Assembly: GCA_964017235.1 (NCBI GenBank)
Contig: OZ024929.1
Span: 107,493,793-107,557,792, forward strand
Direction: 5' to 3'
From: Sabellastarte sp. h YS-2021
Taxonomy: Eukaryota; Annelida; Polychaeta; Sabellida; Sabellidae
Length of the DNA stretch: 64,000 nucleotides
In this document: positions 5,011 to 57,000 of the stretch, in pieces
Numbering within the stretch: the stretch's first letter is position 1
Layout of the letters: each line of letters starts with the position of its first letter
Notes under the pieces: generated by a model
The model's database searches: none
What the model saw: only the letters and a program-made list of their open reading frames with translations
Told to the model about the DNA's origin: nothing
Position numbers and translations under genes: made by a program

Positions 5011-5418
5011 ATAGGCACTTTTAAAATCTGCTACGTGGGGTACTTTGGCACTCCGTGGATGACCTTGAATGAAGAGCTTCAAGCTCAAATGTTTGCAAGG
5101 TTGTAGAGGACATGTATATGTGTTATACATATCACCTATGAAGAGATTCAACCTTCTACCTAGGAGAACCAACCAGTAGAAAAAGGTATATAATTTTCAA
5201 AGAAATGCAAGCGGCGGCCATCTTGTTTTTCAGAATGAGGCTAATTTCAGTTCCGGAGAAGCTTACCTCCCAAAAAAATATCCTGCAAATTTGGTGAACC
5301 TAGCTGGTGTAGTTTTCCTCTCAGAGCATTAACACTGAAAATCTCTGTACCCTGTATAACAAATATATGTTACAGTAAATATATGAAATCAGTTAACACG
5401 TGTATTTACTGAAATTTT

Positions 5419-6522
5419 CCGAAACTAGAAATAGGACGCCCTGTTGATAGTGGCTGCGACATATGAATAGAAACAGGATAGCATAGAAGAACATACATTA
5501 TCATGTGTAATGTCCACCCCATGAACCTTTTGCAAAAATTGTACAGTAGTCTTACAAGACCCTGTTTCATTTGTAAAATATATCAATGATGCTTACATAT
5601 TTATTAGTATACATGTAAATTATTTTAGCTTCATGCCTTTTTGCATTGGTTGGGTCAAAAATTTCGACGAAATCTCTCTATCTCGCACGGTTAAGGAGAT
5701 AGAAGCAAATTTATGTTTTTCAATTTTCGGCAAAAATTCGAAAATTCAAAATGGCCGCCATTTTTGGGAAGAGGATAATTTTTTGAAAATTGCCAAGAAT
5801 ACATTGTCTAGATACCCTGGGGGTCGAAAATTTCGACGAAATCGCTCTATCTCGCACGGTTAAGGAGATAGAAGCAAATTTGTGTTTTGCCATTTTTGGC
5901 CAAAATTCTAAAATTCAAAATGGCCGCCATTTTTGGGAAGAGGAAAATTTTTTTGAAAATTGCCAAGAGTACATTGCTCAGATACCCTGTGGGTCGAAAA
6001 TTTCGACGAAATCGCTCTATCTCGCACAGTTAAGGAGATAGTAGCAAATTTATGTTTTTCCATTTTTTGGCAAAAATTCGAAAATACAAAATGGCCACCA
6101 TTTTTGGGGAGTGGAAATTTTTTGAAAATTGGCAAGAGTACATTTCTCAGATACCCTGTGGGTCGAAAATTTCGACGAAATCGCTCTATCTCGCACGGTT
6201 AAGGAGATAGAAGCAAATTTGTGTTTTCCATTTTTGACAAAGTAGCTAAGTAGCTATTACTCAGTCAGCTATATAGCTATTATCACTAAAACCAATCCCA
6301 AGCAAGCTATCGAAAAGAAAAAGAAACAAAAGAAGTACACAAAAGCAGCTAAGTAGCTATTACTCAGTTAGCTATAGACCTATTTTCACCAAAAGCAATC
6401 CCATGCAAGCTATTAACCCAATAAACACCCATACCAAATTTGGTAAAGATAGGATAAATACTTTTCCTTCAAATGAGCGGAAACCAAGCGTCCGGACGCC
6501 AGAAAAAGCAAAAATAATATGC
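5419..6522 (-). mobile_element. Short 'pearl-like' element with about four 169-bp core repeats, flanked by a 17-bp direct repeat
   Basis: The core (about 5640-6240) has about four copies of the 169-bp monomer that forms the large array at 39.5-49 kb, but in reverse orientation. Both flanks match that large element. 5419-5640 corresponds to 49000-49214, and 6395-6520 corresponds to 39048-39240, including the GGTTTCCGCTCATTT and CACCAAATTTGGTAT words. Immediately outside lie identical 17-bp direct repeats GTATTTACTGAAATTTT at 5402-5418 and 6523-6539, which look like a target duplication. No protein is encoded. The structure of unique ends plus a variable tandem core resembles bivalve pearl elements, which are thought to be Helitron-like; that link is an inference. 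Confidence 0.75.
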
Positions 6523-6599
6523 GTATTTACTGAAATTTTAAGTAAATATGTGTATTTACTGATTAGACACATTAACTGTAACATATAAAGCACCCTGCT

Positions 6600-12789: not shown

Positions 12790-14704
12790 CTTCCTTCACT
12801 AATTGAGACTCGAACAAGGAAGGGCCCCAAAAGGACGAGTTCCCGAGTTCTAGACGTCTCGTTTCTCCTAATTGTGGATGTAATAAAGTCATTTCGGCTT
12901 CGCGCCTGAGCAAGCCGGTATTAGCCATAGAGTATAATTCCCTCTGCAAAATATGGGCTAGAGATTTGCTGAGACAAGTGAGGGCCCTGTGTTGAACAAG
13001 TACTGTCTTGTTCCAAAAATCTAAGTAGTCAGCTACTTCCTCATATCCGCGCTTTGCCGCTTTCTCAGGATTGGCACCTTTCTGAATCTGAGACTTTATC
13101 TTCTTGACCGTAGACTTGATGCTATGTTGGCATTTCTCCAATGAAGCATTGCAAGAAGAGGAGGTTTTGGCAAATGCAGCGGTGAAGTTGAGGGTAGAGA
13201 TGTTTTGTCTAGCCTGAAGTTCTAGCTCCTTGAGAACTGGCAGGGGAACTCTGGCTACTGGGGGCCCAGAAGGTCTAGGAGTAATACAGATCTTAGCAAA
13301 GTCCATATTCAACTCCTGAATTTTGTCCTGAAAAGTTGGTTGTCCCACCTTGTACCACTTTGAAGTTGAGGGAGGAGGCCTGACATATTTTCCCTCAGAT
13401 AAGTTGGCAGCCTTAAAGTCATGTTGGAATTTATCAAAGGCGTCCTTGATAACTGAGCTAAGTGGAAGAATAGAGGAGGGACCTCTAGGTCTGAGCTCTT
13501 GACGGCCTTTTTCATCATCCAGACCCAACACTGAGGTGGACGACCTGGGCATAGATTCCCTGGGGTCAGGGAGAGACAAAATACGCCTGAAGGTGTCCAC
13601 TTCTTCAGAGTATTGTGAGGGCATGTCAGACAAAGCTACTTCCCTATAATAAGGGGGGTCTGGATCATGTTGTGGGAGGTCTTGATCAGAAGCTACTCCT
13701 GAGAGCTGAGCCCTAGAGGGCTTAGAAGACCTGTGTCTGGTTTCAGGGGAGTGTTCCTCCTCTGAGGTAAATGACACGTATCTAGATCTTGATTTATGTT
13801 TGCTCTTGTCAGAGTGTTTTTTGGATCTAGAAGAAGGGATCCGAGGTTCATCGGAATCCTCATTTAGTTGGTCCGAGGCAGAGCTCGGGTCAACTGGCTG
13901 CCTATGGCTTTGCTTTTTGTGAGTGTACGAGACCTCTTCGGGATGATCTTCAGAGGGGGCAACGTACTGATCCGAGGAAGCTTGAGTGGGTACAAGACGA
14001 GGAGGGAGTGCTGGACCGAAGTCCACATCCATAGCCTCACTTGGGATATTAGTACCCGATCTCGGAGGGGGCAAATCCAGAGGGGCAGCAGTGTTACTGG
14101 ACGAACCAGGTTTGGAAGCAAGAAGAGAGGGATCTACCTCGACTTTTTGTTTTGCAGCCAACTCCTCTCGGAGTGACTGAAAAGCTTCCAACATGGATGC
14201 CTGGAAGGTACCCATTTGCTGCTGTAAATGTATATTTAAGGAATCACCGAGTGATTTCTCTAGGTTTTTCTGGATTTTATTTTGCAAAGCCGTACCAGGG
14301 GTGGGTGGAATAGTCTTGGCTGGCGTTTTCAAGGACAGGGAACTGAAGGCAAGAGGTTGTGGACGGGGGGGTGAGGTAAAAAGGCTATCAGCAGCACACT
14401 CGAGGTCTGCATTGGACCCTGTGAAGGAGTCCCCGTCGCCTTCACCCAAAAGATCTAGTTCATCTTTGGAACTAGTTGTCGCTTTCTGCTTTTTCAAATA
14501 CCGTTTCCGGTTTTGGATTTTCTGTAGTTGCTCATCTGTGAAAGACGTGCAAATTTCACAAGGGGTTTCAAAGGTGACACAGGGGTCATCTCCCTTGCCA
14601 GCCTCCCTACAGGTAGGGCAGAAATTATGTGTATCAAAACTAAAGCAGAAATGGCGGCATTTCTGCGCTCTCGGTTTGTCTTTATTTGCTTGATGAGACG
14701 ACAT
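12539..14704 (-). CDS. DIRS gag-like protein (721 aa)
   Basis: This uninterrupted 721-residue frame is the first gene of the DIRS element. The start MSSHQANKDKPRA lies about 390 bp inside the right terminal repeat. Near residues 16-55 there is a Cys/His cluster (CRHFCFSFDTHNFCPTC, then CEICTS) that could bind zinc. The middle is acidic, serine- and proline-rich, with RSKKHSDKSKHKSRSR near residue 295. The C-terminus is very basic and rich in Gly-Arg (GRGKSNFRGFRGRFRPHHRG), like an RNA-binding tail. Its 3' end overlaps the start of the RT frame by 250 bp. A structural, nucleic-acid-packaging role is inferred from position and composition. Confidence 0.8.
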   Translation of the reverse strand: MSSHQANKDKPRAQKCRHFCFSFDTHNFCPTCREAGKGDDPCVTFETPCEICTSFTDEQLQKIQNRKRYLKKQKATTSSKDELDLLGEGDGDSFTGSNADLECAADSLFTSPPRPQPLAFSSLSLKTPAKTIPPTPGTALQNKIQKNLEKSLGDSLNIHLQQQMGTFQASMLEAFQSLREELAAKQKVEVDPSLLASKPGSSSNTAAPLDLPPPRSGTNIPSEAMDVDFGPALPPRLVPTQASSDQYVAPSEDHPEEVSYTHKKQSHRQPVDPSSASDQLNEDSDEPRIPSSRSKKHSDKSKHKSRSRYVSFTSEEEHSPETRHRSSKPSRAQLSGVASDQDLPQHDPDPPYYREVALSDMPSQYSEEVDTFRRILSLPDPRESMPRSSTSVLGLDDEKGRQELRPRGPSSILPLSSVIKDAFDKFQHDFKAANLSEGKYVRPPPSTSKWYKVGQPTFQDKIQELNMDFAKICITPRPSGPPVARVPLPVLKELELQARQNISTLNFTAAFAKTSSSCNASLEKCQHSIKSTVKKIKSQIQKGANPEKAAKRGYEEVADYLDFWNKTVLVQHRALTCLSKSLAHILQRELYSMANTGLLRREAEMTLLHPQLGETRRLELGNSSFWGPSLFESQLVKEGEDFLLKKGTSKDSQGFAPYQNKPFRGPHKKRGSYRKRPYGGNTSQSSNQSFPSGRGKSNFRGFRGRFRPHHRGRGRGNPPPQ

Positions 14705-14928
14705 TTTATACGCAATAAAAGACGTACAATGTACTTGCCTGAACCGAGGAAAACTCAGAACACGCGACAGAAATCAAAATACTTATCCTGTGAAAATTAA
14801 AATTTTACAGAATGATCTATGATATATATTACAAGAAATATGCAAATATTAGCCTCCAACAATAAGTAAAGTCTGAGAAATAAATGAAAATGTCTGTATA
14901 TTTACAAACTGCTACCAGTCAATCGTGG

Positions 14929-21629: not shown

Positions 21630-22500
21630 TACAGGTTGGTTTCACATCCCAAACGTCTAGGAGCAATAATAAGCAAGTTATAAGCACTTTCAAGTTTGGT
21701 TATCCTCTACTGATCATGAAGGAGGGGACCAAGGTCAAATTTGAATACATCAGAAGACTCCATTTCCATGAGTTACTATACATTGGTTTCACATTCAAAC
21801 CTCTAGGACCAATAATAAAGGAGATATAGGCACTTTTATAGTTCGCTACATGGGGTACTTTGGCCCTCTGTGGATGACCTTGAATGACGAGCTTCAAGGT
21901 CAAATGTCTGCATGCTTGTAGAGGACATAAATATCTGTTATACACATCACCTATGAAGAGATTCAACCTTCTAGTTAGGAGAACCAGCCAGTAAAAAATG
22001 TCGATAATTTTCAAAGAGATGCTCAGGGTGGCTGTCATATTTTTCAGAATGAGGCTAATTTCTAGGGGTGTGACGAGTACAAATAATTCAGGTCGATTAC
22101 TCGCAGATAAAAACTCGACTCGACATCGAGCCCTCGCGACATTTAGTATCCACCATAACAGGAAACGACATCCAATATGGCGGCTCCCGTAAACGGAAAA
22201 AAATATAAAGATAAAAGCTTTGAATCGCTTGAATTAGCTATTGTCAGCACATAATATCAATAATATTATGTTACAAATGGTGGATTATGTGATTTAATGA
22301 AAGTAAGGTATGTTATTTATGTTTTATTAACTAAAAAACGTAACCAGTTCTATAGGTTGTTATATATACACGAGCGCTCGACTCTAAGGCTTGGGGTCGA
22401 ATTTTCGTGAAATTCGCCTCGCTCGGCAAGTGTCGACTGCTCGGTCGCACCCCTACAATTTCAGTTCCAGAGAAGCTTACTTCCCAATGAAGATATCCTG
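21630..22500 (+). repeat. Diverged copy of the 147-bp repeat region, paralogous to 4.7-5.3 kb
   Basis: The stretch parallels 4.66-5.33 kb: TTGGTTTCACATTC, GGACCAATAATAA-GGAGATATAGGCACTTTTA, CTACATGGGGTACTTTGG and the downstream TTTCAGTTCC-GAGAAGCTTAC follow in the same order. The parallel is interrupted by a hAT-type MITE at 22063-22454, so the other copy preserves the empty site. Confidence 0.75.
22063..22454. mobile_element. hAT-type MITE (TAGGGGTGTGACGAG ends)
   Basis: Ends TAGGGGTGTGACGAG and its inverted match TCGGTCGCACCCCTA bound a 392-bp non-coding element. Outside, CTAATTTC on the left and CAATTTC on the right form an imperfect 7-8 bp target duplication. The uninterrupted paralogue at about 5241-5254 confirms the insertion. 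Terminal sequence and duplication length fit hAT. Confidence 0.8.
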
Positions 22501-22737
22501 CAAATATGATGAAGCTAGCTGGTCTAGTATTCCACTGAGTCGGGATGGTGTAGTGAAACCCTAAATCAAAGTACCCACCAGATGGATCTGGTGGATACAC
22601 TTAATATATATTACTGAATTCCAATTCCAATTCAACTTTTATAGCGCTTAATCTCTGCCGAAGTGACAGACTCTAAGGCGCAAAATCATAAGCATAGTTA
22701 CAAAAATCATTGTCCTTATCCATAGCTATGGTCGACA

Positions 22738-34206: not shown

Positions 34207-34949
34207 TACGGAGCCCCTAATAGGACATGCTAAAATAGAAATTACAAGAAAAATAAGTGGTGTGTATGAGATGATCTCATTATCACAAGAAAATAACTTG
34301 TGATAATGAGATCATCTTGTGCACACCACTTATTTTCTTGATATCACAAGATGATCTTGTGCTCACTAGATAAAGTGGTGAGCTCCAGATGAAGTGGTGA
34401 TAACGACTTAATAAGTGGTGAGCACTAGTTGATGTGGTGCTCACTACTTATTTTCTTGTTATCATAAGATGAAGTAGTGATCACCACATCATTTAGTTAT
34501 AACCAGATCATCTCATACTCACCACATCATCTGGTGATAACAAGAAAATAAGTAGTGAGCACCACATCATCTGGTGATAACAAGAAAACAAGTAGTGAGC
34601 ACGAGATGAACTAGTGATAACAGAATGATCTGGTTAGCACCAGATTATGTAGTGCTCACTACTTCATCTGGTGATAACAAAATAATAAGTAGTGATCACC
34701 ACATAAACTAGTGCTCACTACTTATTATGTCGTGATAACTACTTCATCTGGTGATCACCACTTTATCTAGTGAGCACAAGATCATCTGGTGAGCACGAGA
34801 TGATCTTGTGATATCAAGAAAACAAGTGGTGCTAACGAGATCATCTCATTATCATGACTTATTTTCTCGTTATCATGAGATTATCTTGTGCGCACGGCTT
34901 AATACATGGTGCAATATTTATTTTACCATGTCCTATTAGGGGCTCCGTA
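34207..34949. mobile_element. 743-bp inverted-repeat element made of permuted palindromic words, upstream of UHRF1
   Basis: Ends TACGGAGCCCCTAATAGGAC (34207) and the exact inverse ending at 34949 form inverted repeats of about 31 bp with one mismatch. CAAATT flanks both sides (34201-34206, 34950-34955), a likely 6-bp target duplication. The interior is built almost entirely from a handful of words (AGTGGTG, AGTAGTGAGCAC, GATGATCT, CATCTGGTGATAAC, AAGAAAATAAG) in many orders and both orientations, so nearly any segment can pair with another. No coding capacity. It ends 155 bp before the UHRF1 ATG. Confidence 0.88.
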
Positions 34950-35024
34950 CAAATTCCTTATTCGGCTGTAAAGTATTTTCGTTTGTGCGTACATATAGTA
35001 GCCTTGACCTATGCGTGGTAAAAC

Positions 35025-35032
35025 TTTCGCGC
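35025..35032 (+). promoter_or_regulatory. E2F-type site TTTCGCGC upstream of UHRF1
   Basis: TTTCGCGCC at 35025-35033 matches the E2F consensus TTTSGCGC and lies 72 bp upstream of the UHRF1 start codon. Vertebrate UHRF1 is a known cell-cycle, E2F-responsive gene, so conserved S-phase control is plausible. Confidence 0.65.
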
Positions 35033-35104
35033 CAGTTTTTCTCTTCACAAAAAATAATAACATTAGCAAACGCCGTTGTCTTAATAAATTACCAACAAAA
35101 CAAA

Positions 35105-35257
35105 ATGTGGATCCAAGTAAGAAGTATGGATGGTAAAAAGACCATCCGTTTGGATAACCTGTCTAAACTTACAGCAATCGAGGAAGTTCGTGAAAGACTT
35201 GTTGAGCATTTCGATGCTCCTGTGGAACGACAAAAGTTATTCTACCGTGGCAAATTG
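35105..35257 (+). CDS. UHRF1: UHRF1 exon 1 (ubiquitin-like domain, first part)
   Basis: The exon encodes 51 residues starting MWIQVRSMDGKKTIRLDNLS and ending LFYRGKL. It matches the N-terminal ubiquitin-like domain of animal UHRF1 (MWIQVRTMDG..., RLFYRGK). The ATG is chosen because MWIQVR is the conserved protein start; the open frame extends 40 codons upstream without family resemblance. The exon ends in TTG before GTTGGT, phase 0, and exon 2 continues with VDGHKLFDY. UHRF1 binds hemimethylated DNA and H3K9me and recruits DNMT1 during replication; the UBL supports its ubiquitin ligase activity. Confidence 0.93.
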
Positions 35258-35552
35258 GTTGGTGTATTTATTCTTCACCACCCCTTGTAATATCACGTAG
35301 CCTTTACATTGTCTTTGTCCCTTAAAAATAAATAAAAAGGGTTCGCAAATTCAGTGATTGAAGAGTGTCAATATGGAAATGCAATGGGCTCAACTAAGTG
35401 AGAACTTAATCTGTCCTTTTTTATTCTCACGAATCCTTATCCACTGTTGTCGCCTTGTGATGGGACTGCCTTGCTATCAATTATTGCCGGGTACCAGTTA
35501 TCGTCAGACAAACTTCAAATAATATAACTTGTCCAAATGGGTATACGAGCAT
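35258..35552. other. Start of UHRF1 intron 1 with a damaged MITE end
   Basis: Non-coding. At 35465 begins CTGCCTTGCTATCAATTATTGCCGG, a diverged left end of the CTGCCTTGCTACC family. Its internal sequence (AACTAGCAGCCCAGGTCTAGC) resumes after the 35553-36938 element at about 36957, so that element interrupted it. Confidence 0.5.
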
Positions 35553-38337: not shown

Positions 38338-39040
38338 GTGTTCGAAACTGCGCGGGCCCGGTGGCCAGGAACTACCAAGTTCTGCTCCGGGCCATCTCTT
38401 TTCGCAAATGCATAGCCCGGCTGGCCATTTGATACTCTGGTTCCTGATTAAATGCGAAGAAAAATATTGTACAACAACCAGTCAAAATACTCGAAACGTT
38501 TTATAATTGAGAGAACTTCACAGAATTTCTGCTTCCCGGTGATAACGTTTTGAATGCAAATATGCTCTGGTTCCTGATTAAACGTGAAGAAAATATTGTA
38601 CGACAACCAGTCAAAATACTCGAAACGTTTTAAAATCGAGAGAACTTTGCAGAATTTCTGCTTTCTGATTGCAACGTTTTGAATGTAAACACACTAGTAC
38701 AGGGGACGTCTTCGTTTTTAATGATTTGGAAATAAGATTTTTATCAATATGTAGTCTACGAAAGCAAAGTCAAGACCTGTATGGTTTTGTTTTAAAGATT
38801 TCTTCGTTTTTTGGTGGAGTTGGGCAATATAACAATAATGTTTAATTTTTATCAGTACTGACTTTATGTACTGAGTACTCTACAGTCACTAGCGGATCCA
38901 GGAGGGTTCAGGGGGTTTGAACCCCACCCCACCCCCCACCCCCATCCCCCTGAAAAATAATGTAAAGGGATTCAACCCAAAGTACAAAATTATTTCTTGA
39001 GAGTGGTGTTAAATTTACAGGAAATACCCTATATTTATGT
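38338..39040. repeat. Repeat region left of the satellite element, with a 130-bp tandem duplication
   Basis: From CCAGTGTTCGAAAC (about 38338) the sequence carries GGGCCAT/GGCCA words that recur to the right of the satellite element at 49628-49670. Two 130-bp units start at about 38435 and 38565 (CTCTGGTTCCTGATTAAA). At about 38886 begins a second set of ends (CACTAGCGGATCCAGG, C/G-rich palindrome) whose probable counterpart is 49236-49330. This suggests the satellite element was inserted into a MITE already nested in another repeat. Confidence 0.5.
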
Positions 39041-39084
39041 CCACCCCCCTGGGGGGTGGATATATTATTTTTGCTTTTTTCGCC

Positions 39085-39143
39085 GTCCGATGTCCGATGT
39101 CCGTTGTCCGATGTCCGATGTCCGGCGTCCGATGTCCGGCGTC
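39085..39143 (+). repeat. Heptamer tandem repeat (GTCCGAT)n
   Basis: About eight 7-bp units GTCCGAT with variants GTCCGTT and GTCCGGC follow the terminal hairpin. The short element at 6.5 kb has only one such unit, so this block also expanded. Confidence 0.85.
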
Positions 39144-39479
39144 ACGCATGGTTTCCGCTCATTTAAAGGAAAAGTATTAGAGCTATTGTCACCAAATTTG
39201 GTATGCAGGCTTATTGGGTCAGTAGCTTGCTTGGGATTGCTTTTGGCTGTTGTACCTCTTTTGCTTACTGAGTAATACTTAAGTACAGCTATTTTCAGTA
39301 CCCATTGGTTTCCGTGCATTTAAGCCAAAATAATTAAAGATATTTTACTACAATTTTGAATACAAGATTGTTATGTCCATAGCTCGCTTGGTATTGCATT
39401 TGGGACTGATAGCTTTGTCAGTACATGAGTAATAGCCATTTAGGTACTTCATTGTGTATTTTCAGTACTACTTTTGAGT

Positions 39480-42400
39480 AATTTGCTTCTATCTCCTTAA
39501 CCGTGCGAGATAGAGCGATTTCGGCAAAATTTTCGACCCACAGGGTATCTGAGGAGTGTACTCTGTGCAATTTTCAAAAAATTTTCCCCTCCCCAAAAAT
39601 GGCGGCCATTTTGAATTTTCGAATTTTTGCCAAAAATGGCAAAACACAAATTTGCTTCTATCTCCTTAACTGTGCGAGATAGAGCGATTTCGTCGAAATT
39701 TTCGACCCACAGGGTATCTAAGGAATGTAATATTTGCAATTTTCCAAAAATTTTCCCCTCCCCAAAAATGGCGGCCATTTTGAATTTTCGAATTTTTGCC
39801 AAAAATGGCAAAACACAAATTTGCTTCTATCTCCTTAACCGTGCGAGATAGAGCGATTTCGTCGAAATTTTCGACCCACAGGGTATCTAAGGAATGTAAT
39901 ATTTGCAATTTTCAAAAAAATTTCCCCTCCCCAAAAATGGCGGCCATTTTGAATTTTCGAATTTTTGCCAAAAATGGCAAAACACAAATTTGCTTCTATC
40001 TCCTTAACCGTGCGAGATAGAGCGATTTCGTCGAAATTTTCGACCCACAGGGTATCTAAGGAATGTAATATTTGCAATTTTCAAAAAATTTTCCCCTCCC
40101 CAAAAATGGCGGCCATTTTGAATTTTCGAATTTTTGCCAAAAATGGCAAAACACAAATTTGCTTCTATCTCCTTAACCGTGCGAGATAGAGCGATTTCGT
40201 CGAAATTTTCGACCCACAGGGTATCTAAGGAATGCAATCTTTGCAATTTTCCAAAAATTTTCCCCTCCCCAAAAATGGCGGCCATTTTGAATTTTCGAAT
40301 TTTTGCCAAAAATGGCAAAACACAAATTTGCTTCTATCTCCTTAACCGTGCGAGATAGAGCGATTTCGTCGAAATTTTCGACCCACAGGGTATCTAAGGA
40401 ATGTAATATTTGCAATTTTCAAAAAAATTTCCCCTCCCCAAAAATGGCGGCCATTTTGAATTTTCGAATTTTTGCCAAAAATGGCAAAACACAAATTTCC
40501 TTCTATCTCCTTAACCGTGCGAGATAGAGCGATTTCGGCAAAATTTTCGACCCACAGGGGATCTAAAGAATGCAATCTTTGCAATTTTCCAAAAATTTTC
40601 CCCTCCCCAAAAATGGCGGCCATTTTGAATTTTCGAATTTTTGCCAAAAATGGCAAAACACTAATTTGCTTCTATCTCCTTAACCGTGCGAGATAGAGCG
40701 ATTTCGGCAAAATTTTAGACGCACAGGGTATCTAAGCAATGCAATCTTTGCAATTTTCAAAATATTTTCCCCTCCCCAAAAATGGCGGCCATTTTGAATT
40801 TTCGAATTTTTGCCAAAAATGGCAAAACACAAATTTGCTTCTATCTCCTTAACCGTGCGAGATAGAGCGATTTCGTCGAAATTTTCGACCCACAGGGTAT
40901 CTAAGGAATGCAATCTTTGCAATTTTCCAAAAATTTTCCCCTCCCCAAAAATGGCGGCCATTTTGAATTTTCGAATTTTTGCCAAAAATGGCAAAACACA
41001 AATTTGCTTCTATCTCCTTAACCGTGCGAGATAGAGCGATTTCGTCGAAATTTTCGACCCACAGGGTATCTAAGGAATGCAATCTTTGCAATTTTCCAAA
41101 AATTTTCCCCTCCCCAAAAATGGCGGCCATTTTGAATTTTCGAATTTTTGCCAAAAATGGCAAAACACAAATTTGCTTCTATCTCCTTAACCGTGCGAGA
41201 TAGAGCGATTTCGTCGAAATTTTCGACCCACAGGGTATCTAAGGAATGTAATATTTGCAATTTTCAAAAAAATTTCCCCTCCCCAAAAATGGCGGCCATT
41301 TTGAATTTTCGAATTTTTGCCAAAAATGGCAAAACACAAATTTGCTTCTATCTCCTTAACCGTGCGAGATAGAGCGATTTCGGCAAAATTTTCGACCCAC
41401 AGGGGATCTAAGGAATGCAATCTTTGCAATTTTCCAAAAATTTTCCCCTCCCCAAAAATGGCGGCCATTTTGAATTTTCGAATTTTTGCCAAAAATGGCA
41501 AAACACTAATTTGCTTCTATCTCCTTAACCGTGCGAGATAGAGCGATTTCGGCAAAATTTTCGACGCACAGGGTATCTAAGCAATGCAATCTTTGCAATT
41601 TTCAAAATATTTTCCCCTCCCCAAAAATGGCGGCCATTTTGAATTTTCGAATTTTTGCCAAAAATGGCAAAACACAAATTTGCTTCTATCTCCTTAACCG
41701 TGCGAGATAGAGCGATTTCGTCGAAATTTTCGACCCACAGGGTATCTAAGGAATGTAATATTTGCAATTTTCAAAAAAATTTCCCCTCCCCAAAAATGGC
41801 GGCCATTTTGAATTTTCGAATTTTTGCCAAAAATGGCAAAACACAAATTTGCTTCTATCTCCTTAACCGTGCGAGATAGAGCGATTTCGGCAAAATTTTC
41901 GACCCACAGGGGATCTAAGGAATGCAATCTTTGCAATTTTCCAAAAATTTTCCCCTCCCCAAAAATGGCGGCCATTTTGAATTTTCGAATTTTTGCCAAA
42001 AATGGCAAAACACTAATTTGCTTCTATCTCCTTAACCGTGCGAGATAGAGCGATTTCGTCGAAATTTTCGACCCACAGGGTATCTAAGGAATGTAATATT
42101 TGCAATTTTCAAAAAAATTTCCCCTCCCCAAAAATGGCGGCCATTTTGAATTTTCGAATTTTTGCCAAAAATGGCAAAACACAAATTTCCTTCTATCTCC
42201 TTAACCGTGCGAGATAGAGCGATTTCGGCAAAATTTTCGACCCACAGGGGATCTAAGGAATGCAATCTTTGCAATTTTCCAAAAATTTTCCCCTCCCCAA
42301 AAATGGCGGCCATTTTGAATTTTCGAATTTTTGCCAAAAATGGCAAAACACTAATTTGCTTCTATCTCCTTAACCGTGCGAGATAGAGCGATTTCGGCAA

Positions 42401-45400
42401 AATTTTAGACGCACAGGGTATCTAAGCAATGCAATCTTTGCAATTTTCAAAATATTTTCCCCTCCCCAAAAATGGCGGCCATTTTGAATTTTCGAATTTT
42501 TGCCAAAAATGGCAAAACACAAATTTGCTTCTATCTCCTTAACCGTGCGAGATAGAGCGATTTCGTCGAAATTTTCGACCCACAGGGTATCTAAGGAATG
42601 CAATCTTTGCAATTTTCAAAAAAATTTCCCCTCCCCAAAAATGGCGGCCATTTTGAATTTTCGAATTTTTGCCAAAAATGGCAAAACACAAATTTGCTTC
42701 TATCTCCTTAACCGTGCGAGATAGAGCGATTTCGTCGAAATTTTCGACCCACAGGGTATCTAAGGAATGCAATCTTTGCAATTTTCCAAAAATTTTCCCC
42801 TCCCCAAAAATGGCGGCCATTTTGAATTTTCGAATTTTTGCCAAAAATGGCAAAACACAAATTTGCTTCTATCTCCTTAACTGTGCGAGATAGAGCGATT
42901 TCGTCGAAATTTTCGACCCACAGGGTATCTAAGGAATGTAATATTTGCAATTTTCAAAAAAATTTCCCCTCCCCAAAAATGGCGGCCATTTTGAATTTTC
43001 GAATTTTTGCCAAAAATGGCAAAACACAAATTTGCTTCTATCTCCTTAACCGTGCGAGATAGAGCGATTTCGGCAAAATTTTCGACCCACAGGGGATCTA
43101 AGGAATGCAATCTTTGCAATTTTCCAAAAATTTTCCCCTCCCCAAAAATGGCGGCCATTTTGAATTTTCGAATTTTTGCCAAAAATGGCAAAACACTAAT
43201 TTGCTTCTATCTCCTTAACCGTGCGAGATAGAGCGATTTCGGCAAAATTTTCGACGCACAGGGTATCTAAGCAATGCAATCTTTGCAATTTTCAAAATAT
43301 TTTCCCCTCCCCAAAAATGGCGGCCATTTTGAATTTTCGAATTTTTGCCAAAAATGGCAAAACACAAATTTGCTTCTATCTCCTTAACCGTGCGAGATAG
43401 AGCGATTTCGTCGAAATTTTCGACCCACAGGGTATCTAAGGAATGTAATATTTGCAATTTTCAAAAAAATTTCCCCTCCCCAAAAATGGCGGCCATTTTG
43501 AATTTTCGAATTTTTGCCAAAAATGGCAAAACACAAATTTGCTTCTATCTCCTTAACCGTGCGAGATAGAGCGATTTCGGCAAAATTTTCGACCCACAGG
43601 GGATCTAAGGAATGCAATCTTTGCAATTTTCCAAAAATTTTCCCCTCCCCAAAAATGGCGGCCATTTTGAATTTTCGAATTTTTGCCAAAAATGGCAAAA
43701 CACTAATTTGCTTCTATCTCCTTAACCGTGCGAGATAGAGCGATTTCGGCAAAATTTTCGACGCACAGGGTATCTAAGCAATGCAATCTTTGCAATTTTC
43801 AAAATATTTTCCCCTCCCCAAAAATGGCGGCCATTTTGAATTTTCGAATTTTTGCCAAAAATGGCAAAACACAAATTTGCTTCTATCTCCTTAACCGTGC
43901 GAGATAGAGCGATTTCGTCGAAATTTTCGACCCACAGGGTATCTAAGGAATGTAATCTTTGCAATTTTCAAAAAATTTTCCCCTCGCCAAAAATGGCGGC
44001 CATTTTGAATTTTCGAATTTTTGCCAAAAATTGCAAAACAAATTTGCTTCTATCTCCTTAACCGTGCGAGATAGAGCGATTTCGTCGAAATTTTCGACCC
44101 ACAGGGTATCTAAGGAATGCAATCTTTGCAATTTTCCAAAAATTTTCCCCTCCCCAAAAATGGCGGCCATTTTGAATTTTCGAATTTTTGCCAAAAATGG
44201 CAAAACACAAATTTGCTTCTATCTCCTTAACCGTGCGAGATAGAGCGATTTCGTCGAAATTTTCGACCCACAGGGTATCTAAGGAATGTAATATTTGCAA
44301 TTTTCAAAAAAATTTCCCCTCCCCAAAAATGGCGGCCATTTTGAATTTTCGAATTTTTGCCAAAAATGGCAAAACACAAATTTCCTTCTATCTCCTTAAC
44401 CGTGCGAGATAGAGCGATTTCGGCAAAATTTTCGACCCACAGGGGATCTAAGGAATGCAATCTTTGCAATTTTCCAAAAATTTTCCCCTCCCCAAAAATG
44501 GCGGCCATTTTGAATTTTCGAATTTTTGCCAAAAATGGCAAAACACTAATTTGCTTCTATCTCCTTAACCGTGCGAGATAGAGCGATTTCGGCAAAATTT
44601 TAGACGCACAGGGTATCTAAGCAATGCAATCTTTGCAATTTTCAAAATATTTTCCCCTCCCCAAAAATGGCGGCCATTTTGAATTTTCGAATTTTTGCCA
44701 AAAATGGCAAAACACAAATTTGCTTCTATCTCCTTAACCGTGCGAGATAGAGCGATTTCGTCGAAATTTTCGACCCACAGGGTATCTAAGGAATGCAATC
44801 TTTGCAATTTTCAAAAAATTTTCCCCTCCCCAAAAATGGCGGCCATTTTGAATTTTCGAATTTTTGCCAAAAATGGCAAAACACAAATTTGCTTCTATCT
44901 CCTTAACCGTGCGAGATAGAGCGATTTCGTCGAAATTTTCGACCCACAGGGTATCTAAGGAATGCAATCTTTGCAATTTTCCAAAAATTTTCCCCTCCCC
45001 AAAAATGGCGGCCATTTTGAATTTTCGAATTTTTGCCAAAAATGGCAAAACACAAATTTGCTTCTATCTCCTTAACCGTGCGAGATAGAGCGATTTCGTC
45101 GAAATTTTCGACCCACAGGGTATCTAAGGAATGTAATATTTGCAATTTTCAAAAAAATTTCCCCTCCCCAAAAATGGCGGCCATTTTGAATTTTCGAATT
45201 TTTGCCAAAAATGGCAAAACACAAATTTGCTTCTATCTCCTTAACCGTGCGAGATAGAGCGATTTCGGCAAAATTTTCGACCCACAGGGGATCTAAGGAA
45301 TGCAATCTTTGCAATTTTCCAAAAATTTTCCCCTCCCCAAAAATGGCGGCCATTTTGAATTTTCGAATTTTTGCCAAAAATGGCAAAACACTAATTTGCT

Positions 45401-48400
45401 TCTATCTCCTTAACCGTGCGAGATAGAGCGATTTCGGCAAAATTTTCGACGCACAGGGTATCTAAGCAATGCAATCTTTGCAATTTTCAAAATATTTTCC
45501 CCTCCCCAAAAATGGCGGCCATTTTGAATTTTCGAATTTTTGCCAAAAATGGCAAAACACAAATTTGCTTCTATCTCCTTAACCGTGCGAGATAGAGCGA
45601 TTTCGTCGAAATTTTCGACCCACAGGGTATCTAAGGAATGTAATATTTGCAATTTTCAAAAAAATTTCCCCTCCCCAAAAATGGCGGCCATTTTGAATTT
45701 TCGAATTTTTGCCAAAAATGGCAAAACACAAATTTGCTTCTATCTCCTTAACCGTGCGAGATAGAGCGATTTCGGCAAAATTTTCGACCCACAGGGGATC
45801 TAAGGAATGCAATCTTTGCAATTTTCCAAAAATTTTCCCCTCCCCAAAAATGGCGGCCATTTTGAATTTTCGAATTTTTGCCAAAAATGGCAAAACACTA
45901 ATTTGCTTCTATCTCCTTAACCGTGCGAGATAGAGCGATTTCGTCGAAATTTTCGACCCACAGGGTATCTAAGGAATGTAATATTTGCAATTTTCAAAAA
46001 AATTTCCCCTCCCCAAAAATGGCGGCCATTTTGAATTTTCGAATTTTTGCCAAAAATGGCAAAACACAAATTTCCTTCTATCTCCTTAACCGTGCGAGAT
46101 AGAGCGATTTCGGCAAAATTTTCGACCCACAGGGGATCTAAGGAATGCAATCTTTGCAATTTTCCAAAAATTTTCCCCTCCCCAAAAATGGCGGCCATTT
46201 TGAATTTTCGAATTTTTGCCAAAAATGGCAAAACACTAATTTGCTTCTATCTCCTTAACCGTGCGAGATAGAGCGATTTCGGCAAAATTTTAGACGCACA
46301 GGGTATCTAAGCAATGCAATCTTTGCAATTTTCAAAATATTTTCCCCTCCCCAAAAATGGCGGCCATTTTGAATTTTCGAATTTTTGCCAAAAATGGCAA
46401 AACACAAATTTGCTTCTATCTCCTTAACCGTGCGAGATAGAGCGATTTCGTCGAAATTTTCGACCCACAGGGTATCTAAGGAATGCAATCTTTGCAATTT
46501 TCAAAAAATTTTCCCCTCCCCAAAAATGGCGGCCATTTTGAATTTTCGAATTTTTGCCAAAAATGGCAAAACACAAATTTGCTTCTATCTCCTTAACCGT
46601 GCGAGATAGAGCGATTTCGTCGAAATTTTCGACCCACAGGGTATCTAAGGAATGCAATCTTTGCAATTTTCCAAAAATTTTCCCCTCCCCAAAAATGGCG
46701 GCCATTTTGAATTTTCGAATTTTTGCCAAAAATGGCAAAACACAAATTTGCTTCTATCTCCTTAACCGTGCGAGATAGAGCGATTTCGTCGAAATTTTCG
46801 ACCCACAGGGTATCTAAGGAATGTAATATTTGCAATTTTCAAAAAAATTTCCCCTCCCCAAAAATGGCGGCCATTTTGAATTTTCGAATTTTTGCCAAAA
46901 ATGGCAAAACACAAATTTGCTTCTATCTCCTTAACCGTGCGAGATAGAGCGATTTCGGCAAAATTTTCGACCCACAGGGGATCTAAGGAATGCAATCTTT
47001 GCAATTTTCCAAAAATTTTCCCCTCCCCAAAAATGGCGGCCATTTTGAATTTTCGAATTTTTGCCAAAAATGGCAAAACACTAATTTGCTTCTATCTCCT
47101 TAACCGTGCGAGATAGAGCGATTTCGGCAAAATTTTCGACGCACAGGGTATCTAAGCAATGCAATCTTTGCAATTTTCAAAATATTTTCCCCTCCCCAAA
47201 AATGGCGGCCATTTTGAATTTTCGAATTTTTGCCAAAAATGGCAAAACACAAATTTGCTTCTATCTCCTTAACCGTGCGAGATAGAGCGATTTCGTCGAA
47301 ATTTTCGACCCACAGGGTATCTAAGGAATGTAATATTTGCAATTTTCAAAAAAATTTCCCCTCCCCAAAAATGGCGGCCATTTTGAATTTTCGAATTTTT
47401 GCCAAAAATGGCAAAACACAAATTTGCTTCTATCTCCTTAACCGTGCGAGATAGAGCGATTTCGGCAAAATTTTCGACCCACAGGGGATCTAAGGAATGC
47501 AATCTTTGCAATTTTCCAAAAATTTTCCCCTCCCCAAAAATGGCGGCCATTTTGAATTTTCGAATTTTTGCCAAAAATGGCAAAACACTAATTTGCTTCT
47601 ATCTCCTTAACCGTGCGAGATAGAGCGATTTCGGCAAAATTTTCGACGCACAGGGTATCTAAGCAATGCAATCTTTGCAATTTTCAAAATATTTTCCCCT
47701 CCCCAAAAATGGCGGCCATTTTGAATTTTCGAATTTTTGCCAAAAATGGCAAAACACAAATTTGCTTCTATCTCCTTAACCGTGCGAGATAGAGCGATTT
47801 CGTCGAAATTTTCGACCCACAGGGTATCTAAGGAATGTAATCTTTGCAATTTTCAAAAAATTTTCCCCTCGCCAAAAATGGCGGCCATTTTGAATTTTCG
47901 AATTTTTGCCAAAAATTGCAAAACACAAATTTGCTTCTATCTCCTTAACCGTGCGAGATAGAGCGATTTCGTCGAAATTTTCGACCCACAGGGTATCTAA
48001 GGAATGCAATCTTTGCAATTTTCCAAAAATTTTCCCCTCCCCAAAAATGGCGGCCATTTTGAATTTTCGAATTTTTGCCAAAAATGGCAAAACACAAATT
48101 TGCTTCTATCTCCTTAACCGTGCGAGATAGAGCGATTTTATCGAAATTTTCGACCCACAGGGTATCTAAGGAATGTAATATTTGCAATTTTCAAAAAATT
48201 TTCCCCTCCCCAAAAATGGCGGCCATTTTGAATTTTCGAATTTTTGCCAAAAATGGCAAAACACAAATTTGCTTCTATCTCCTTAACCTTGCGAGATAGA
48301 GCGATTTCGTCGAAATTTTCGACCCACAGGGTATCTAAGGAATGCAATCTTTGCAATTTTCCAAAAATTTTCCCCTCCCCAAAAATGGCGGCCATTTTGA

Positions 48401-48992
48401 ATTTTCGAATTTTTGCCAAAAATGGCAAAACACAAATTTGCTTCTATCTCCTTAACCGTGCCAGATAGAGTGATTTCGTCAAAATTTTCGACCCACAGGG
48501 TATCTGAGCATTGTACTCTTGGTAATTTCTAAAAAATTTTCCCCTCCCCTAAAATGGCGGCCATTTTGAATTTTCAAATTTTTGCCAAAAATGGCAAAAC
48601 ACAAATTTGCTTCTATCTCCTTAACCATGCGAGATAGAGCGATTTCGTCGAAATTTTCAACCCACAGGGTATCTAAGGAATGTAATCTTTGCAATTTTCA
48701 AAAAATTTTCCCCTCCCCAAAAATGGCAGCCATTTTGAATTTTCGAATTTTTGCCCAAAATGGAAAAACACAAACTGGCCTTAACCGTGCAAAATAGAGT
48801 TATTTTGTTGAAATTTTCGACCCATAGGGTATCTAAGAAATGTACTCTTGGCAATTTTCAAAAAAATTTCCTTTTCCCAATAATGGCGGCCATTTTGAAT
48901 TTTCAAATTTTTGCCAAAAATAGAAAAACAGGAATTGGCTTCTATCTTCTTAACCGTGCAAGATAGAGTGATTTCGTCAAAATTTTCAACCC
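39480..48992 (+). repeat. 169-bp satellite array, about 56 monomers, with higher-order repeats
   Basis: Every 169 bp the sequence repeats TTTGCTTCTATCTCCTTAAC...GAGATAGAGCGATTTCG...CGACCCACAGGG...AAAATGGCGGCCATTTTG...GCCAAAAATGGCAAAAC. Monomers fall into a few classes by shared variants: GTCGAAATTTTCGAC or GGCAAAATTTTCGAC, AGGGTATC or AGGGGATC, AATGTAATATT or AATGCAATCTT, and units with GACGCACAGG and AAGCAATG. Classes recur in fixed order, giving a 10-monomer and a 13-monomer block, and this 23-monomer pair is itself repeated (40472-44356 and 44357-48243). Edge monomers are diverged, as usual in satellites. One monomer near 44035 has lost 2 bp. Short open frames on both strands are by-products of the period. 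Confidence 0.95.
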
Positions 48993-49214
48993 AACCAATG
49001 CAAAAAGGCATGAAGCTGAAATAAATTACATCTACACTATCAAATATTTAAGCATCATTGATATATTTTACAAATGAAACAGGGTCTTGTAAGACTACTG
49101 TACAATTTGGGCAAAAGGTTCATGGGTGGACATTACACATGATAATGTGTGTTCTTCTATGCTATCCTGTTTCTATTCGCATCTACTATCAACAGGGCGG
49201 CCTATTTCTAGTTT

Positions 49215-53586: not shown

Positions 53587-53714
53587 AGCTGACTTGTCAG
53601 TCAGCTGGCATTATGTCGTCACTCTGCGGCGTGGGCGTACGCGTCCGCGTGAACAACTTCTCCAAAACTACAAGGCCTAGAGACGTGCTGTTTTTTTAAA
53701 AAGATACCTTATCT

Positions 53715-56170
53715 ATCGAGGATGAAAAATTGTTCAAGGCATGCAAATCTGTCTGTTCGTCTGTTTGCTAGAGACATTACAAGGGGGGTACCCCCACCAA
53801 AAGTGTGAAAATTTCAACACTTAATCACAATTTTCTCAGTGACTATTGCAGGGATTTCTCTCATATCTTGCATATATGTACTAGGCCAGAGGTAGATTCT
53901 CTTGTGTGAGTATGAGACCTGGATCTGCCTTATTTTTTTTTTTATAAATTTTTTTAATAATTTTTAGTGCATTAACATTCATGAAATCATGCACAAAATC
54001 ATTTATAACTTGAAAACTGTTGCATCTAGAGCATTTTGTTAAAATGTGTTATTCAGCTACTTTTTTCATAGCTACAATATGGTGAGTAAGTTGGGTGCCT
54101 GTCTCAATAGCTAAGTGAGTAATAGCTACTTTTGGGCTTTTCAGTAACTTCCATCATGAGTAGAATCACTTGTAACTTAAAAACTATTGCATTTAGAGAA
54201 TTTCGTATAGATATGTTATTCAGCTACTTTTGGGTCAGCTATAACATAGTAAAATTTCAGACCTGTAGCTCATGGCATAGCTGAGTAATAGCTACTTTTA
54301 GGTTATCACTGTTGAGTAAATCGCTTATAACTTGGAAACTATTGCATTTAGAGTATTTTGTTTCAATATGTTATTCACCTATTTTGGGATCAGCTATAAC
54401 ATAGTGAAGTTTCAGATCTGTGGCTCATTGCATAGCTGAGTAATAGCTACTTTGAAGTTCTCACTATTGAGTAAATCAGTTGTAATTGGAAAACTATTGC
54501 ATTTAGAGAATTTCGTATAAATATGTTATTCAGCTACTTTTGGGTCAGCTATAACATAGTAAAATTTCAGACCTGTAGCTCATGGCATAGCTGAGTAATA
54601 GCTACTTTTAGGTCATCACTATTGAGTAAATCAGTTGTAACTTGAAAACTATTGCATTTACAGTATTTTGCTTAAATATGTTGTTCACCTACTTTTGGGT
54701 CAGCTATAACATAGAAAAATTTCAGACCTGTAGCTCATGGCATAGCTGAGTAATAGCTACTTTTAGGTCATCACTATTGAGTAAATCAGTTGTAACTTGA
54801 AAACTATTGCATTTACAGTATTTTGCTTTAATATGTTGTTCACCTACTTTTGGGTCAGCTATAACATAGTGAAATTTCAGACCTGTAGCTCATTGCATAG
54901 CTGAGTAATAACTACTTTGAGGTTCTCACTATTGAGTAAATCAGTTGTAATTGCAAAACTATTGCATTTAGAGAATTTAGTATAAATATGTTATTCAGCT
55001 ACTTTTGGGTCAACTATAACATAGTAAAATTTCAGACCTGTAGCTCATGGCATAGCTGAGTAATAGCTACTTTTAGGTCATCACTATTTAGTAAATCAGT
55101 TGTAACTTGAAAACTATTGCATTTACAGTATTTTGCTTAAATATGTTATTCACCTATTTTGGGGTCAGCTATAACATAGTGAAGTTCCGGACCTGTGACT
55201 CATTGCATAGCTGAGTAATAGCTACTTTGAAGTTCTCAATGTTGAGTAGATCACTTGTAATTTGAAAACTATTGCATTTAGAGAATTTAGTATAAATATG
55301 TTATTCAGCTACTTTTGGGTCAGCTATAACATAGTAAAATTTCAGACCTGTAGCTCATGGCATAGCTGAGTAATAGCTACTTTTAGGTTATCACTGTTGA
55401 GTAAATCACTTATAACTTGAAAACTATTGCATTTAGAGTATTTTGTTGCAATATGTTATTCACCTATTTTGGGGTCAGCTATAACATAGTGAAGTTCCAG
55501 ACCTGTGGCTCATTGCATAGCTGAGTAATAGCTACTTTGAAGTTCTCACTGTTGAGTAAATCAGTTGTAATTGGAAAACTATTGCCTTTACAGAAATTTG
55601 TGCAAATATGTTATTCACCTACTTTTGGGTCAGCTATAACATAGTGAAATTACAGACCAGTAGCTCATGGCACAACTGAGCAATAGCTATTCTCAGGCAC
55701 TGACTGTTGAGTAAATCAGCTATAACTTGAAAAATATTGCATTTGGAGTATTTTGTTAAAATATATTGTTCACCTACTTTTGGGTTAGCTATAACATAGT
55801 GAAATTATAGACCTATAGCTCATGGCATAGCGGAGCAATAGCTATTTTCTGGTTCTCACTATTGAGTAAATCAGTTGTAACTTGAAAACTATTGCATTTA
55901 CAGTATTTTGCTTAAATATGTTGTTCACCTACTTTTAGGTCAGCTATAACAGAGCAAACATTCAGACATGTAGCTCATGGCATAGCTGAGTAATAGTTAC
56001 TTTGAGGTTCTCACTCTTAAGTAAATCAGTTGTAACTTGAAAATTATTACATTTAGAGTATTTTGTTAAATATGTTATTCACAGACCTTTTGGTCAGCTA
56101 TAACATAGTGAAATTGCAGACCTCTATGTCATGGGATAGCTGAGCAATAGCTTCTTTCAGGTTCTCACTG
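53715..56170 (+). repeat. Tandem array, about 155-bp unit, about 14 copies
   Basis: CAGCTATAACATAGTGAAAT recurs about every 155 bp from about 54236 to 56100, with GAGTAATAGCTACTTT and TTGAGTAAATCAGTTGTAAC in each unit. The leader at 53715-53960 has a short GGGGGGTACCCCC hairpin, resembling the left ends of the other tandem-core elements. The same unit occurs reversed at 28.06-29.13 kb. Confidence 0.88.
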
Positions 56171-56189
56171 TTGAGTAAATCATTGTATC

Positions 56190-57000
56190 CAACCTGTAGG
56201 AAATCATGGGCTGGGAATCTGTTAATATGGTCCGATTTGACCTTGGAACCATCCTTCAAGGTCAAACGAAGATAGCCAAACTTAAAGTGCTTATAACTCG
56301 CATATTGTTGGTCTTGGAGGTTGGAATGAAAACCAACCTATAGAAAATCATGAGCTGGGAATTTTTTGGTGTGGTCGGATTTCACCTTGGACCCCTCCTT
56401 CAAGGTCAAATGAGGATAGCCAAACTTAAAAGTGCTTATAACTCACTTATTATTGGTCCTAGAGGTTTCGAATGGAAAACCAACCTATAGAAAATCATGG
56501 GCTGGGAATCTTTTGGTGTGGTCGGATTTGACCTTAGACCCCTCCTTCCAGGTCAAACGAAGATAGCCAAACTTTAAGTGCTTATAACTCGTGTATTATT
56601 GGTCTTGGAGGTTTGGGATGGTAAACCAACATATAGGAAATCATGGGCTGGGATTCTTTTGGTGTGGTCAGATTTGACCTGGGACCCCTCCTTCAAGGTC
56701 AATTGAGGATAGCCAAACTTACAATTGCTTAGAACTCGCTTATTATTGGTCCTACAAGTTTGGGATGGTAAACAAGCTACAGGAAATCATGGGCTGGGAA
56801 TTTTTTTGTGTGGTCGGATTTGACCTTGGACCCCCTCCTTCAAGGTCAAACAAGGATAGCCAAACTTAAAAAGTACCTATGACTCACTTATTATTGGTCC
56901 GAGAGGTTTGGGATGGTAAACCATCCTAAATTCTTTGGCTGGGAATCTTTTGGTATGGTCAGATTTGACCTTTGGACCCCTTCATGGTCGAACGAGGATA
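56190..57000 (-). repeat. Tandem array, about 147-bp unit, about five to six copies
   Basis: AAATCATGGGCTGGGAAT recurs near 56203, 56346, 56492, 56640 and 56786. It is the reverse orientation of the family at 4.4-5.0 kb and directly abuts the 155-bp array. Confidence 0.85.

Follow-up and report, generated by a model that had tools for sequence, protein, structure and literature searches.

The window, the 64,000-nucleotide stretch of Sabellastarte DNA analysed here, holds a long copy of a repeated element, copy B, and a related short copy, S, in the opposite orientation (Table 1). The body of copy B is an array with a 169-bp period and 95% matches. The original prediction had put the monomer numbers at about 56 and about 4; the measured values are 56.4 and 3.5. 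None of the 26 stop-to-stop open reading frames of at least 110 amino acids in the window lies inside copy B, and one of 112 amino acids (5525-5863) overlaps part of S.

Table 1. Features of the two copies and their flanks in the window
Feature	Position	Strand	Description
Copy B	39036..49212	+	complete HINE-type element (non-autonomous Helentron, very probable); 10,177 bp, TATGTCC...CTAGT, between T and T
B 5′ subTIR and inverted repeat	39037..39063	+	ATGTCCACCCCCC and complementary GGGGGGTGGATAT, forming a hairpin
B microsatellite	39084..39138	+	GTCCGAT / GTCCG tandem repeat, period 7
B spacer	39139..39479	+	microsatellite to core; contains a diverged tandem pair
B core array	39480..48993	+	56.4 monomers of 169 bp, higher-order repeats
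B 3′ subTIR	49122-49133	+	ATGGGTGGACAT
B palindrome	49135-49150	+	ACACATgataATGTGT, adjoining the 3′ subTIR
B 3′ terminus and target T	49201..49213	+	CCTATTTCTAGT, then T; T after CTAGT in 30/30 loci, flanks beyond dissimilar
Copy S	5423..6520	-	short, 5′-truncated, without the 5′ subTIR hairpin
S 3′ subTIR	5510-5520	-	
S palindrome	5493-5508	-	one base changed
S core	5651-6241	-	3.5 copies of the 169-bp monomer of B, orientation opposite to B
Left 17-mer	5402..5418	+	GTATTTACTGAAATTTT, left flank of S; module of a host palindromic repeat
Right 17-mer	6523..6539	+	right flank of S; same host module

The ends of copy B, first placed at 39041 and 49214, lie at 39036 and 49212. Both match genome-wide families and conservation stops there, and zero-gap tandem junctions at other loci place the element boundaries at the same points. 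The 5′ hairpin is stable as folded DNA (z = -3.92, equalled in 1 of 200 shuffles); the last 69 bp contain no unusually stable hairpin (z = -0.23). The two subTIRs of copy B agree over 10 bp. The 5′ subTIR starts 1 nt from the terminus as set in this analysis; a distance of 2-4 nt is given for mite HINEs in the available text of PMC4067079. The 3′ subTIR and the palindrome lie farther from the 3′ end, at ~79 and ~62 bp, than in the mite HINEs described there (38-60 and 8-35 bp; PMC4067079). These distances do not exclude copy B from the class, because the ranges are given for mite families and are not a definition. The diverged pair in the spacer (39149-39246 and 39306-39403) matches at 74%. 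Of the GC-rich palindromes at the two sides of copy B, both at first considered as host repeats, the left one is in fact the 5′ subTIR hairpin, and its counterpart on the right is not part of the element.

The original prediction took the array for a mobile-element core; the genome bears this out. The right-end motif occurs at 9,499 places in the 1.79-Gb genome and its reversed control at none. The prediction had named absence of the ends from most arrays as the result that would count against it; in the end-to-array direction, in which the comparison was run, the right end leads into a 169-bp array at all 30 sampled loci, with 174-353 bp between it and the start of the core. In 29 of the 30 the 3′ subTIR and palindrome are present with at most 2 mismatches each, and the base after CTAGT is T in every one. 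The 5′ hairpin is found at about 7,267 places in its general form and at 5,656 in the subtype of copy B (controls 0). Three further loci (L041, L042 and L117) hold complete elements with two ends each and dissimilar flanks; microsatellite followed by tandem core recurs in L041 and L042. No target duplication was seen at copy B or at these three loci, where both sides were read. The ends are fixed at T|T, the HINE substructures are in place and the element is dispersed in thousands of copies.

We consider it very probable that copy B represents a complete member of a HINE family of very high copy number, with the 169-bp monomer array as its body. The family is a known kind of element, in a group that includes the bivalve pearl elements. 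The comparison with pearl elements made in the original prediction was apt, since PMC7492417, in the text available, classes them as HINEs; by description CvA, CvE and CvG share the layout, the ~160-bp central repeats and the class, but have up to six central repeats (PMC7492417, PMC11136912, both in part). Cg_HINE of Crassostrea gigas is described in passages of PMC7492417 as having a 5′ subTIR with complementary inverted repeat, a 3′ subTIR with palindrome and core monomers of 140-180 bp, and several oyster HINEs there carry GTCY, GTCC or GTCK microsatellites. By layout, Cg_HINE resembles our family in its 5′ subTIR/inverted repeat, GTCC-type microsatellite, tandem core and 3′ subTIR/palindrome; it also shares the T-rich target, lack of target duplication, occurrence in both orientations and insertion into other repeats (PMC7492417, same passages). 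The DINE-1/HINE elements of Drosophila and mites have subTIRs, an inverted repeat (in Drosophila), a 3′ palindrome and T|T insertion, and some copies contain tandem repeats (PMC4067079, in the portion available). CgiSat01/Cg170 is similar in setting, its monomers lying mainly inside Helitron-type elements (PMC8268682, available part).

It is improbable that the element belongs to the canonical Helitrons instead of the Helentrons. That alternative is suggested by the end in CTAG, like that of bat Helraiser as given in the available text of PMC5876387, followed by TT, and by gap-free head-to-tail junctions, which the same text reports for Helitrons. However, the combination of 5′ and 3′ subTIRs, 5′ complementary arm, 3′ palindrome, GTCC microsatellite and T|T insertion is that of a HINE (PMC7492417, PMC4067079, as far as their accessible text goes), and the final 69 bp lack the stable hairpin. 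A SINE/LINE-type retroposon with a 17-bp target duplication is hardly credible. Identical 17-mers do flank S, starting at 5402 and 6523 as originally noted, but the sequence occurs at 712 places in the genome (reversed control 2) and stands elsewhere, at L116, in tandem with a 29-bp period; four complete elements lack a target duplication. The 17-mers, first read as a target duplication, are most likely a module of the host repeat. Their assignment to the element terminus was also considered and dropped.

The original prediction held that S and copy B share both ends and differ in copy number alone. On the side opposite the microsatellite the end is indeed shared, with 89.6% identity over 241 bp (49226-48994 and 5412-5650), and no further match to it turned up within the window at an E-value under 1e-3. 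The microsatellite side is less alike, 78.8% over 146 bp plus AAAAAGCAAAAATAATAT, and is not wholly unique, part of it being a diverged tandem pair. The pair in S (6239-6310 with 6342-6413) is related to the spacer pair of copy B; part of it also gives short matches to a 155-bp array region at 54.1 kb. The difference is not in copy number alone: S lacks the 5′ hairpin, its microsatellite is almost absent, and its 3′ end is of a form that contains an additional GACATATG-type stretch and is seen at 6 of the 30 loci, copy B having the commoner form. The proposal that S is the small ancestor of copy B is not supported; S is an unlikely seed because its 5′ end is missing and its 3′-end variant is a different one.

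The higher-order structure claimed for the array was recovered. The 56 monomers of copy B fall into 23 exact types, which read from the element 3′ end as ABCDEFGHIJHIJKLHMNOJHIJKLHMNKPHIJHIJQRHMNOJHIJKKHSNKTUVW. The longest exact internal repeat, at a 10-monomer lag, measures 1,734 bp; mean monomer identity peaks at lag 23 among lags 1-24. The first four monomers recur exactly elsewhere, type A at 4 loci, B at 1, C at 3 and D at 3. L117, the same locus as L038, lies on contig C1; its 42 monomers include eight of the 23 types in another order, with the type pair HM also present. None of the three further complete arrays in the comparison has the interior order of copy B, 11 of the 23 types (L, N and O among them) occur in no other locus fetched, and L041 and L042 have no exact monomer in common with copy B. 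Across loci, the first monomer from the 3′ end has an identity of 0.934 between loci versus 0.864 within the same array, the second 0.899 versus 0.838, and from the third inwards the gap is small. Since edge monomers recur exactly and the interior order differs, the array moves together with the element and undergoes rearrangement later. Interior similarity in copy B is 0.968 within the array versus 0.943 to other loci; in L040 the relation is the other way round, with 0.908 within the array versus 0.922 to other loci. Homogenisation is therefore not found in every array, as L040 and the lack of exact copy B monomers in L041 and L042 illustrate.

Array length was surveyed in end-to-end pairs with exact, and so probably young, ends along the initial 31 Mb of contig C1. 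Pairing ends by position yields false long pairs (probes showed that 3 of 4 at 8-10 kb were not continuous core), and 57 of 59 pairs were kept after those of 8,003 and 9,933 bp were dropped as wrong. Their cores have 3 to about 100 monomers, with 3-5 in six pairs; pairs with the left-end subtype of copy B have a median of 3,852 bp (41 pairs). Elements with about 38 and 42 monomers were read from end to end, and probes were placed along five more measuring 7.7-17.7 kb. Contrary to the original supposition, a length of ~10 kb is not exceptional, nor is copy B a record, because three of the 57 pairs are longer (maximum 17.7 kb, at C1:15.60 Mb) and the longest element-associated array of oyster CgiSat01/Cg170 has 89 monomers (PMC8268682, in the text available). 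Cg_HINE cores, in contrast to the 3 to about 100 monomers here, mostly have at most 5 (at least 5 in 9%, longest 29; PMC7492417, in the part available).

How the array of copy B reached its present size is a separate question. A short S-like element of ~4 monomers with a 17-bp target duplication may have inserted and its core expanded in place, which would amount to the seeding of a satellite. The monomer and ends common to S and copy B, the types found in copy B alone among the loci fetched, its long exact segmental duplications and the existence of elements with 3-5 monomers are all consistent with such a history. We nevertheless think it rather unlikely: S itself is truncated and of the other 3′-end variant, the pairs with the same left-end subtype have a median far from that size, and the edge types of copy B recur elsewhere, eight of its types being present in L117, which makes it probable that a multi-monomer array was already present in their common source. 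Seeding of a free-standing satellite by the element is a hypothesis. The structure is extremely improbable as an ordinary satellite whose shared ends are chance neighbours or co-amplified flank. The array is long, largely homogeneous and built of higher-order repeats, as such a satellite would be, but every one of the 30 dispersed ends runs into an array with dissimilar flanks past the terminus, and L041, L042 and L117 are complete with two ends in dissimilar surroundings; for copies with ends, this reading is already contradicted. It is also very improbable that the length and higher-order structure of copy B are assembly artefacts. Such arrays are hard to assemble and copy B is known from the assembly alone, but the other long elements read or probed are alike, and monomer order differs among the complete arrays compared.

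Under the HINE reading, the Rep-helicase of an autonomous Helentron would nick the element, rolling-circle synthesis would copy it with its array, and the product would insert at T|T, creating no target duplication. After insertion, segmental duplication within the array, by unequal exchange or replication slippage, could change its length and build copy-specific higher-order repeats. Copy B probably arrived with an array already present and was then reorganised, and probably lengthened, in place, because its edge monomers are exact across contigs while the interior order differs, together with the proposed duplication after insertion. Growth in its source copy would also fit the evidence. A search for the helicase partner with Helitron_like_N gave 24 matches in the genome and none in 14 control genomes. 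No autonomous partner with the family ends turned up: the 20 Rep loci fetched (of 24) contain neither end, though they extend ~1.5 kb past the domain, too short a span to reach element ends. L059 among them has a single core-like match, and a further 12 kb next to one Rep locus gave only a weak match of 37 bp. A viral contig collection yielded 0 matches. A search of bacterial genome contigs returned 1 match, L001.

Whole elements also stand in tandem. Searches for zero-gap head-to-tail junctions gave 14 exact matches, spread over 11 distinct places that include a four-match cluster (control 0), where about 0.02 would be expected under uniform placement. A further 15 have 1-2 mismatches (control 0); 11 junction loci were read, and most of the 15 near matches are identified by motif match alone. 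Two tandem whole-element units differ by a single 1-bp indel. Some junctions join different end variants, which fits either insertion at the terminal TT of another element or a concatemer. The gap-free junctions are a possible test of the rolling-circle route. As a tentative extension, which we lean slightly against, the ordinary transposing unit may be the long-array element, with ~20-100 monomers moved whole by rolling circle, each copy then evolving its own higher-order structure and whole elements also forming a second-tier satellite in tandem. If so, satellite birth and turnover would be replicated independently thousands of times in this genome, each time within fixed boundaries.

The origin of satellites from transposons has usually been argued from few cases; the title of a study of DINE-TR1 in Drosophila reportedly announces satellite emergence from a Helitron-type element. 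The present family offers thousands of copies whose ends are fixed, and the edge of the array is recognisable in the copies compared. With cores in the sample of 3 to about 100 monomers, the growth of arrays, the formation of higher-order repeats and the transposition of long arrays could therefore be measured copy by copy. Its many copies and the great differences in array length recommend the family for studies of how satellite DNA arises from mobile DNA.

The element that contains the 169-bp array of the window is a real, long copy of an already known kind, a non-autonomous Helentron (HINE) with a satellite-like core. As the original prediction proposed, the array is the core of a mobile element: at 30 of 30 right-end (3') loci the sequence runs into the core at 174-353 bp from the end, and similarity ceases at the terminus. 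The complete copy in the window, B, begins on the + strand with the 5' subTIR TATGTCCACCCCCC directly after a target T, with GGGGGGTGGATAT as its complementary arm. Inward from this hairpin lie a GTCCGAT microsatellite, a spacer and the core. The core is followed by the 3' subTIR ATGGGTGGACAT, the palindrome ACACATgataATGTGT and the terminus CTAGT, adjoined by a T. The 5' hairpin is much stabler than shuffled sequences (z = -3.92), and the 3' region taken whole is not (z = -0.82). The order of parts is that of the HINEs described in oysters (PMC7492417) and in Drosophila and mites (PMC4067079), although the 3' subTIR and palindrome of the mite elements lie nearer the 3' end (PMC4067079). The CTAG terminus is reminiscent of the Helitron Helraiser (PMC5876387). 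Satellites linked to Helitrons or Helentrons are on record in oysters, Drosophila and others.

Features of the window, with the complete (B) and short (S) copies of the element
Feature	Position	Strand	Copies or remark
B	39036-49212	+	10,177 bp
169-bp array	39480-48993	+	56.4 copies
Part of B spacer, microsatellite to core	39149-39403		contains its own diverged dimer
S	5423-6520	-	5'-truncated
Short array, same 169-bp monomer	5651-6241	opposite to 39480-48993 array	3.5 copies
Part of S spacer	6239-6413		contains its own diverged dimer
High-copy host repeat around S	5355-5418, 6523-6580		17-mer at 5402-5418 and 6523-6539
155-bp array	54157-56187
148-bp array	56189-57000		directly adjoins 155-bp array
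Stretches related to 148-bp repeat	4449-5324, 21635-22539		unique end in common; second broken by ~400-bp insert (22062-22457)
Long ORFs, one with reverse transcriptase (RVT_1)	9786-14773	-
Exon-like ORF, ubiquitin domain	34940-35290
Long inverted repeat	34207-34949		own reverse complement matched at 76% over ~740 bp

The family is abundant in this genome (1.786 Gb in 647 contigs, of which C3 contains the window). A pattern of 27 bases from the end common to B and S, allowing up to 3 mismatches, hit 9,499 places, and its backwards-read control none. The left end (5' hairpin with the microsatellite behind it) was found at about 7,267 places in its general form with 3 mismatches and at 5,656 in B's own form with 2 (controls 0). 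The 30 right-end loci are biased to young copies, since all are exact matches and were taken first in order along contig C1. Their core continues beyond the 1.5 kb read in 21 and terminates within it in 9.

B and S had been predicted to lie in opposite orientation with common ends. The orientation stands, as does one end (89.6% over 241 bp, with no further match within the window); the microsatellite-side ends are only loosely alike (78.8% over 146 bp). The 17-mer on both flanks of S had been read as a target duplication. It occurs at 712 genome places, against 2 for the reversed control. At the 8 loci read (some overlap), it is part of a palindromic repeat of the host whose modules resemble CAGTAAATACGCGTATTTACTGAAATTTT, and at C1:140727420 the module containing it is tandem at 29 bp. 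In loci L002-L009 and L116 and around S, this repeat has CAGTAAATACGCGTATTTACTG-type palindromic modules and TGTTACAGTAAATATG-like ends. Because the 17-mer belongs to a host repeat that is sometimes tandem, and S is without the 5' hairpin, S most likely sits between two host modules. The two 17-mers may instead be a genuine 17-bp target duplication. T directly follows CTAGT in 30/30 right-end loci. At B and three other loci read on both sides (L041, L042 and L117), a T stands on either side and no longer duplication was found, which together with the abundance of the 17-mer speaks against that reading.

The B core has 56 monomers of 23 exact types. Read from the 3' end, with spacing ours, their order is ABCDEFG HIJ HIJKLHMNOJ HIJKLHMNKP HIJ HIJQRHMNOJ HIJKKHSN KTUVW, and exact internal repeats reach 1,734 bp. 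At the 3' edge, monomers 1 and 2 are closer to their positional counterparts in other copies (0.934 and 0.899) than to the rest of the array they belong to (0.864 and 0.838). The difference is small at positions 3 to 7 (0.003-0.021) and reversed at position 8 (3 pairs only). With L038 and L117 treated as a single locus, exact copies of type A are present in 4 other loci, of type B in 1, and of types C and D in 3 each. In the interior, similarity among monomers of one array exceeds that to other loci for B (0.968 vs 0.943), L041 (0.954 vs 0.942) and L042 (0.951 vs 0.941); L040 shows the opposite direction (0.908 vs 0.922). No exact monomers common to B and L041 or L042 were found. L117, on C1, has 42 monomers. 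It contains eight of B's types (C, D, H, I, J, K, M, T), differently ordered, and carries five repeats of JKT. Since exact types are common and their order differs, the monomers suggest that the common ancestor of at least B and L117 already carried a multi-monomer array, and that the order was rearranged separately in each. Array growth would have taken place after insertion. The proposal that S seeded B fails as far as tested, with S being 5'-truncated and that ancestor apparently multi-monomer.

Exact ends among those listed on C1 were paired: 100 right ends (0.9-31.3 Mb) with 49 left ends of B's subtype and 36 of another. This gave 59 pairs; 38 right ends lacked a left end within 25 kb, and another 3 used the left end of a nearer one. 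Pairs of 8,003 and 9,933 bp were removed after probes proved both false. The remaining 57 span 1,174 to 17,739 bp, the length of most resting on end-to-end distance. The 41 pairs with B's subtype, 5 of them from one tandem cluster, have a median of 3,852 bp; the other subtype keeps 16 of its 18 pairs (median 2,024 bp, computed on all 18). Three of the 57 exceed B (10,736, 11,040 and 17,739 bp), so a length of 10 kb is not exceptional as had been supposed. All 19 probes inside these three and the 7,664- and 7,774-bp elements were core, as was one in a 3.9-kb element (20/20 across six elements), and 3/3 in a 9.0-kb element. At a distance of 3 kb from further right ends, 4/8 probes were core, all four from pairs above 4 kb. 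Read end to end, L041, L042 and L117 have about 25, 38 and 42 monomers.

Whole elements also occur in tandem. The gap-free junction of CCTATTTCTAGTT with ATGTCCACCCC was found exactly at 14 places in 11 separate sites (control 0), with about 0.02 expected under uniform end placement, a figure that ignores TT preference and clustering. Another 15 places have 1-2 mismatches (control 0), some of which may be chance matches. At C1:17.09 Mb (G000:C1:17091005-17105048), four junctions spaced 4,674 or 4,673 bp apart mark a tandem of whole 4.67-kb elements, two compared units of which are identical except for one 1-bp indel. A second such tandem lies at C5:47.70 Mb (G000:C5:47702948-47708947), where three near-match junctions stand 2,988 bp apart, one of them read (L115). 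Reading of 11 junction loci outside the C1 cluster, 10 of them exact and 1 near, showed a full 3' end in 9 and a different or deleted one in 2 (L108, L114); at several, the end variants that meet are of different subtypes. The identical units fit either rolling-circle concatemers or unequal exchange, and the mixed-subtype junctions are compatible with a copy having inserted at the terminal TT of an element already in place.

Elsewhere in the window, a GC-rich stretch with a CAGCTGAC hairpin-like sequence lies at ~53.6 kb, and 53600-57000 has the appearance of another HINE-type element, this one with two cores. The dimer in the S spacer has short matches to 155-bp repeats at 54.1 and 63 kb, hinting that parts may have been exchanged between element families. 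The reverse transcriptase element presumably resembles the DIRS/Ngaro type, and we take the ubiquitin-domain ORF to resemble the start of UHRF1.

As for an autonomous partner, Helitron_like_N has 24 matches in this genome and is present in 0 of 14 control genomes. Family ends were not found in 20 fetched Helitron_like_N loci, though these stretches are too short to speak against a partner; one of them (L059) holds the only core-like match. The unusual point is that a single genome has so many long-core copies with fixed ends, so that the growth of arrays becomes measurable.
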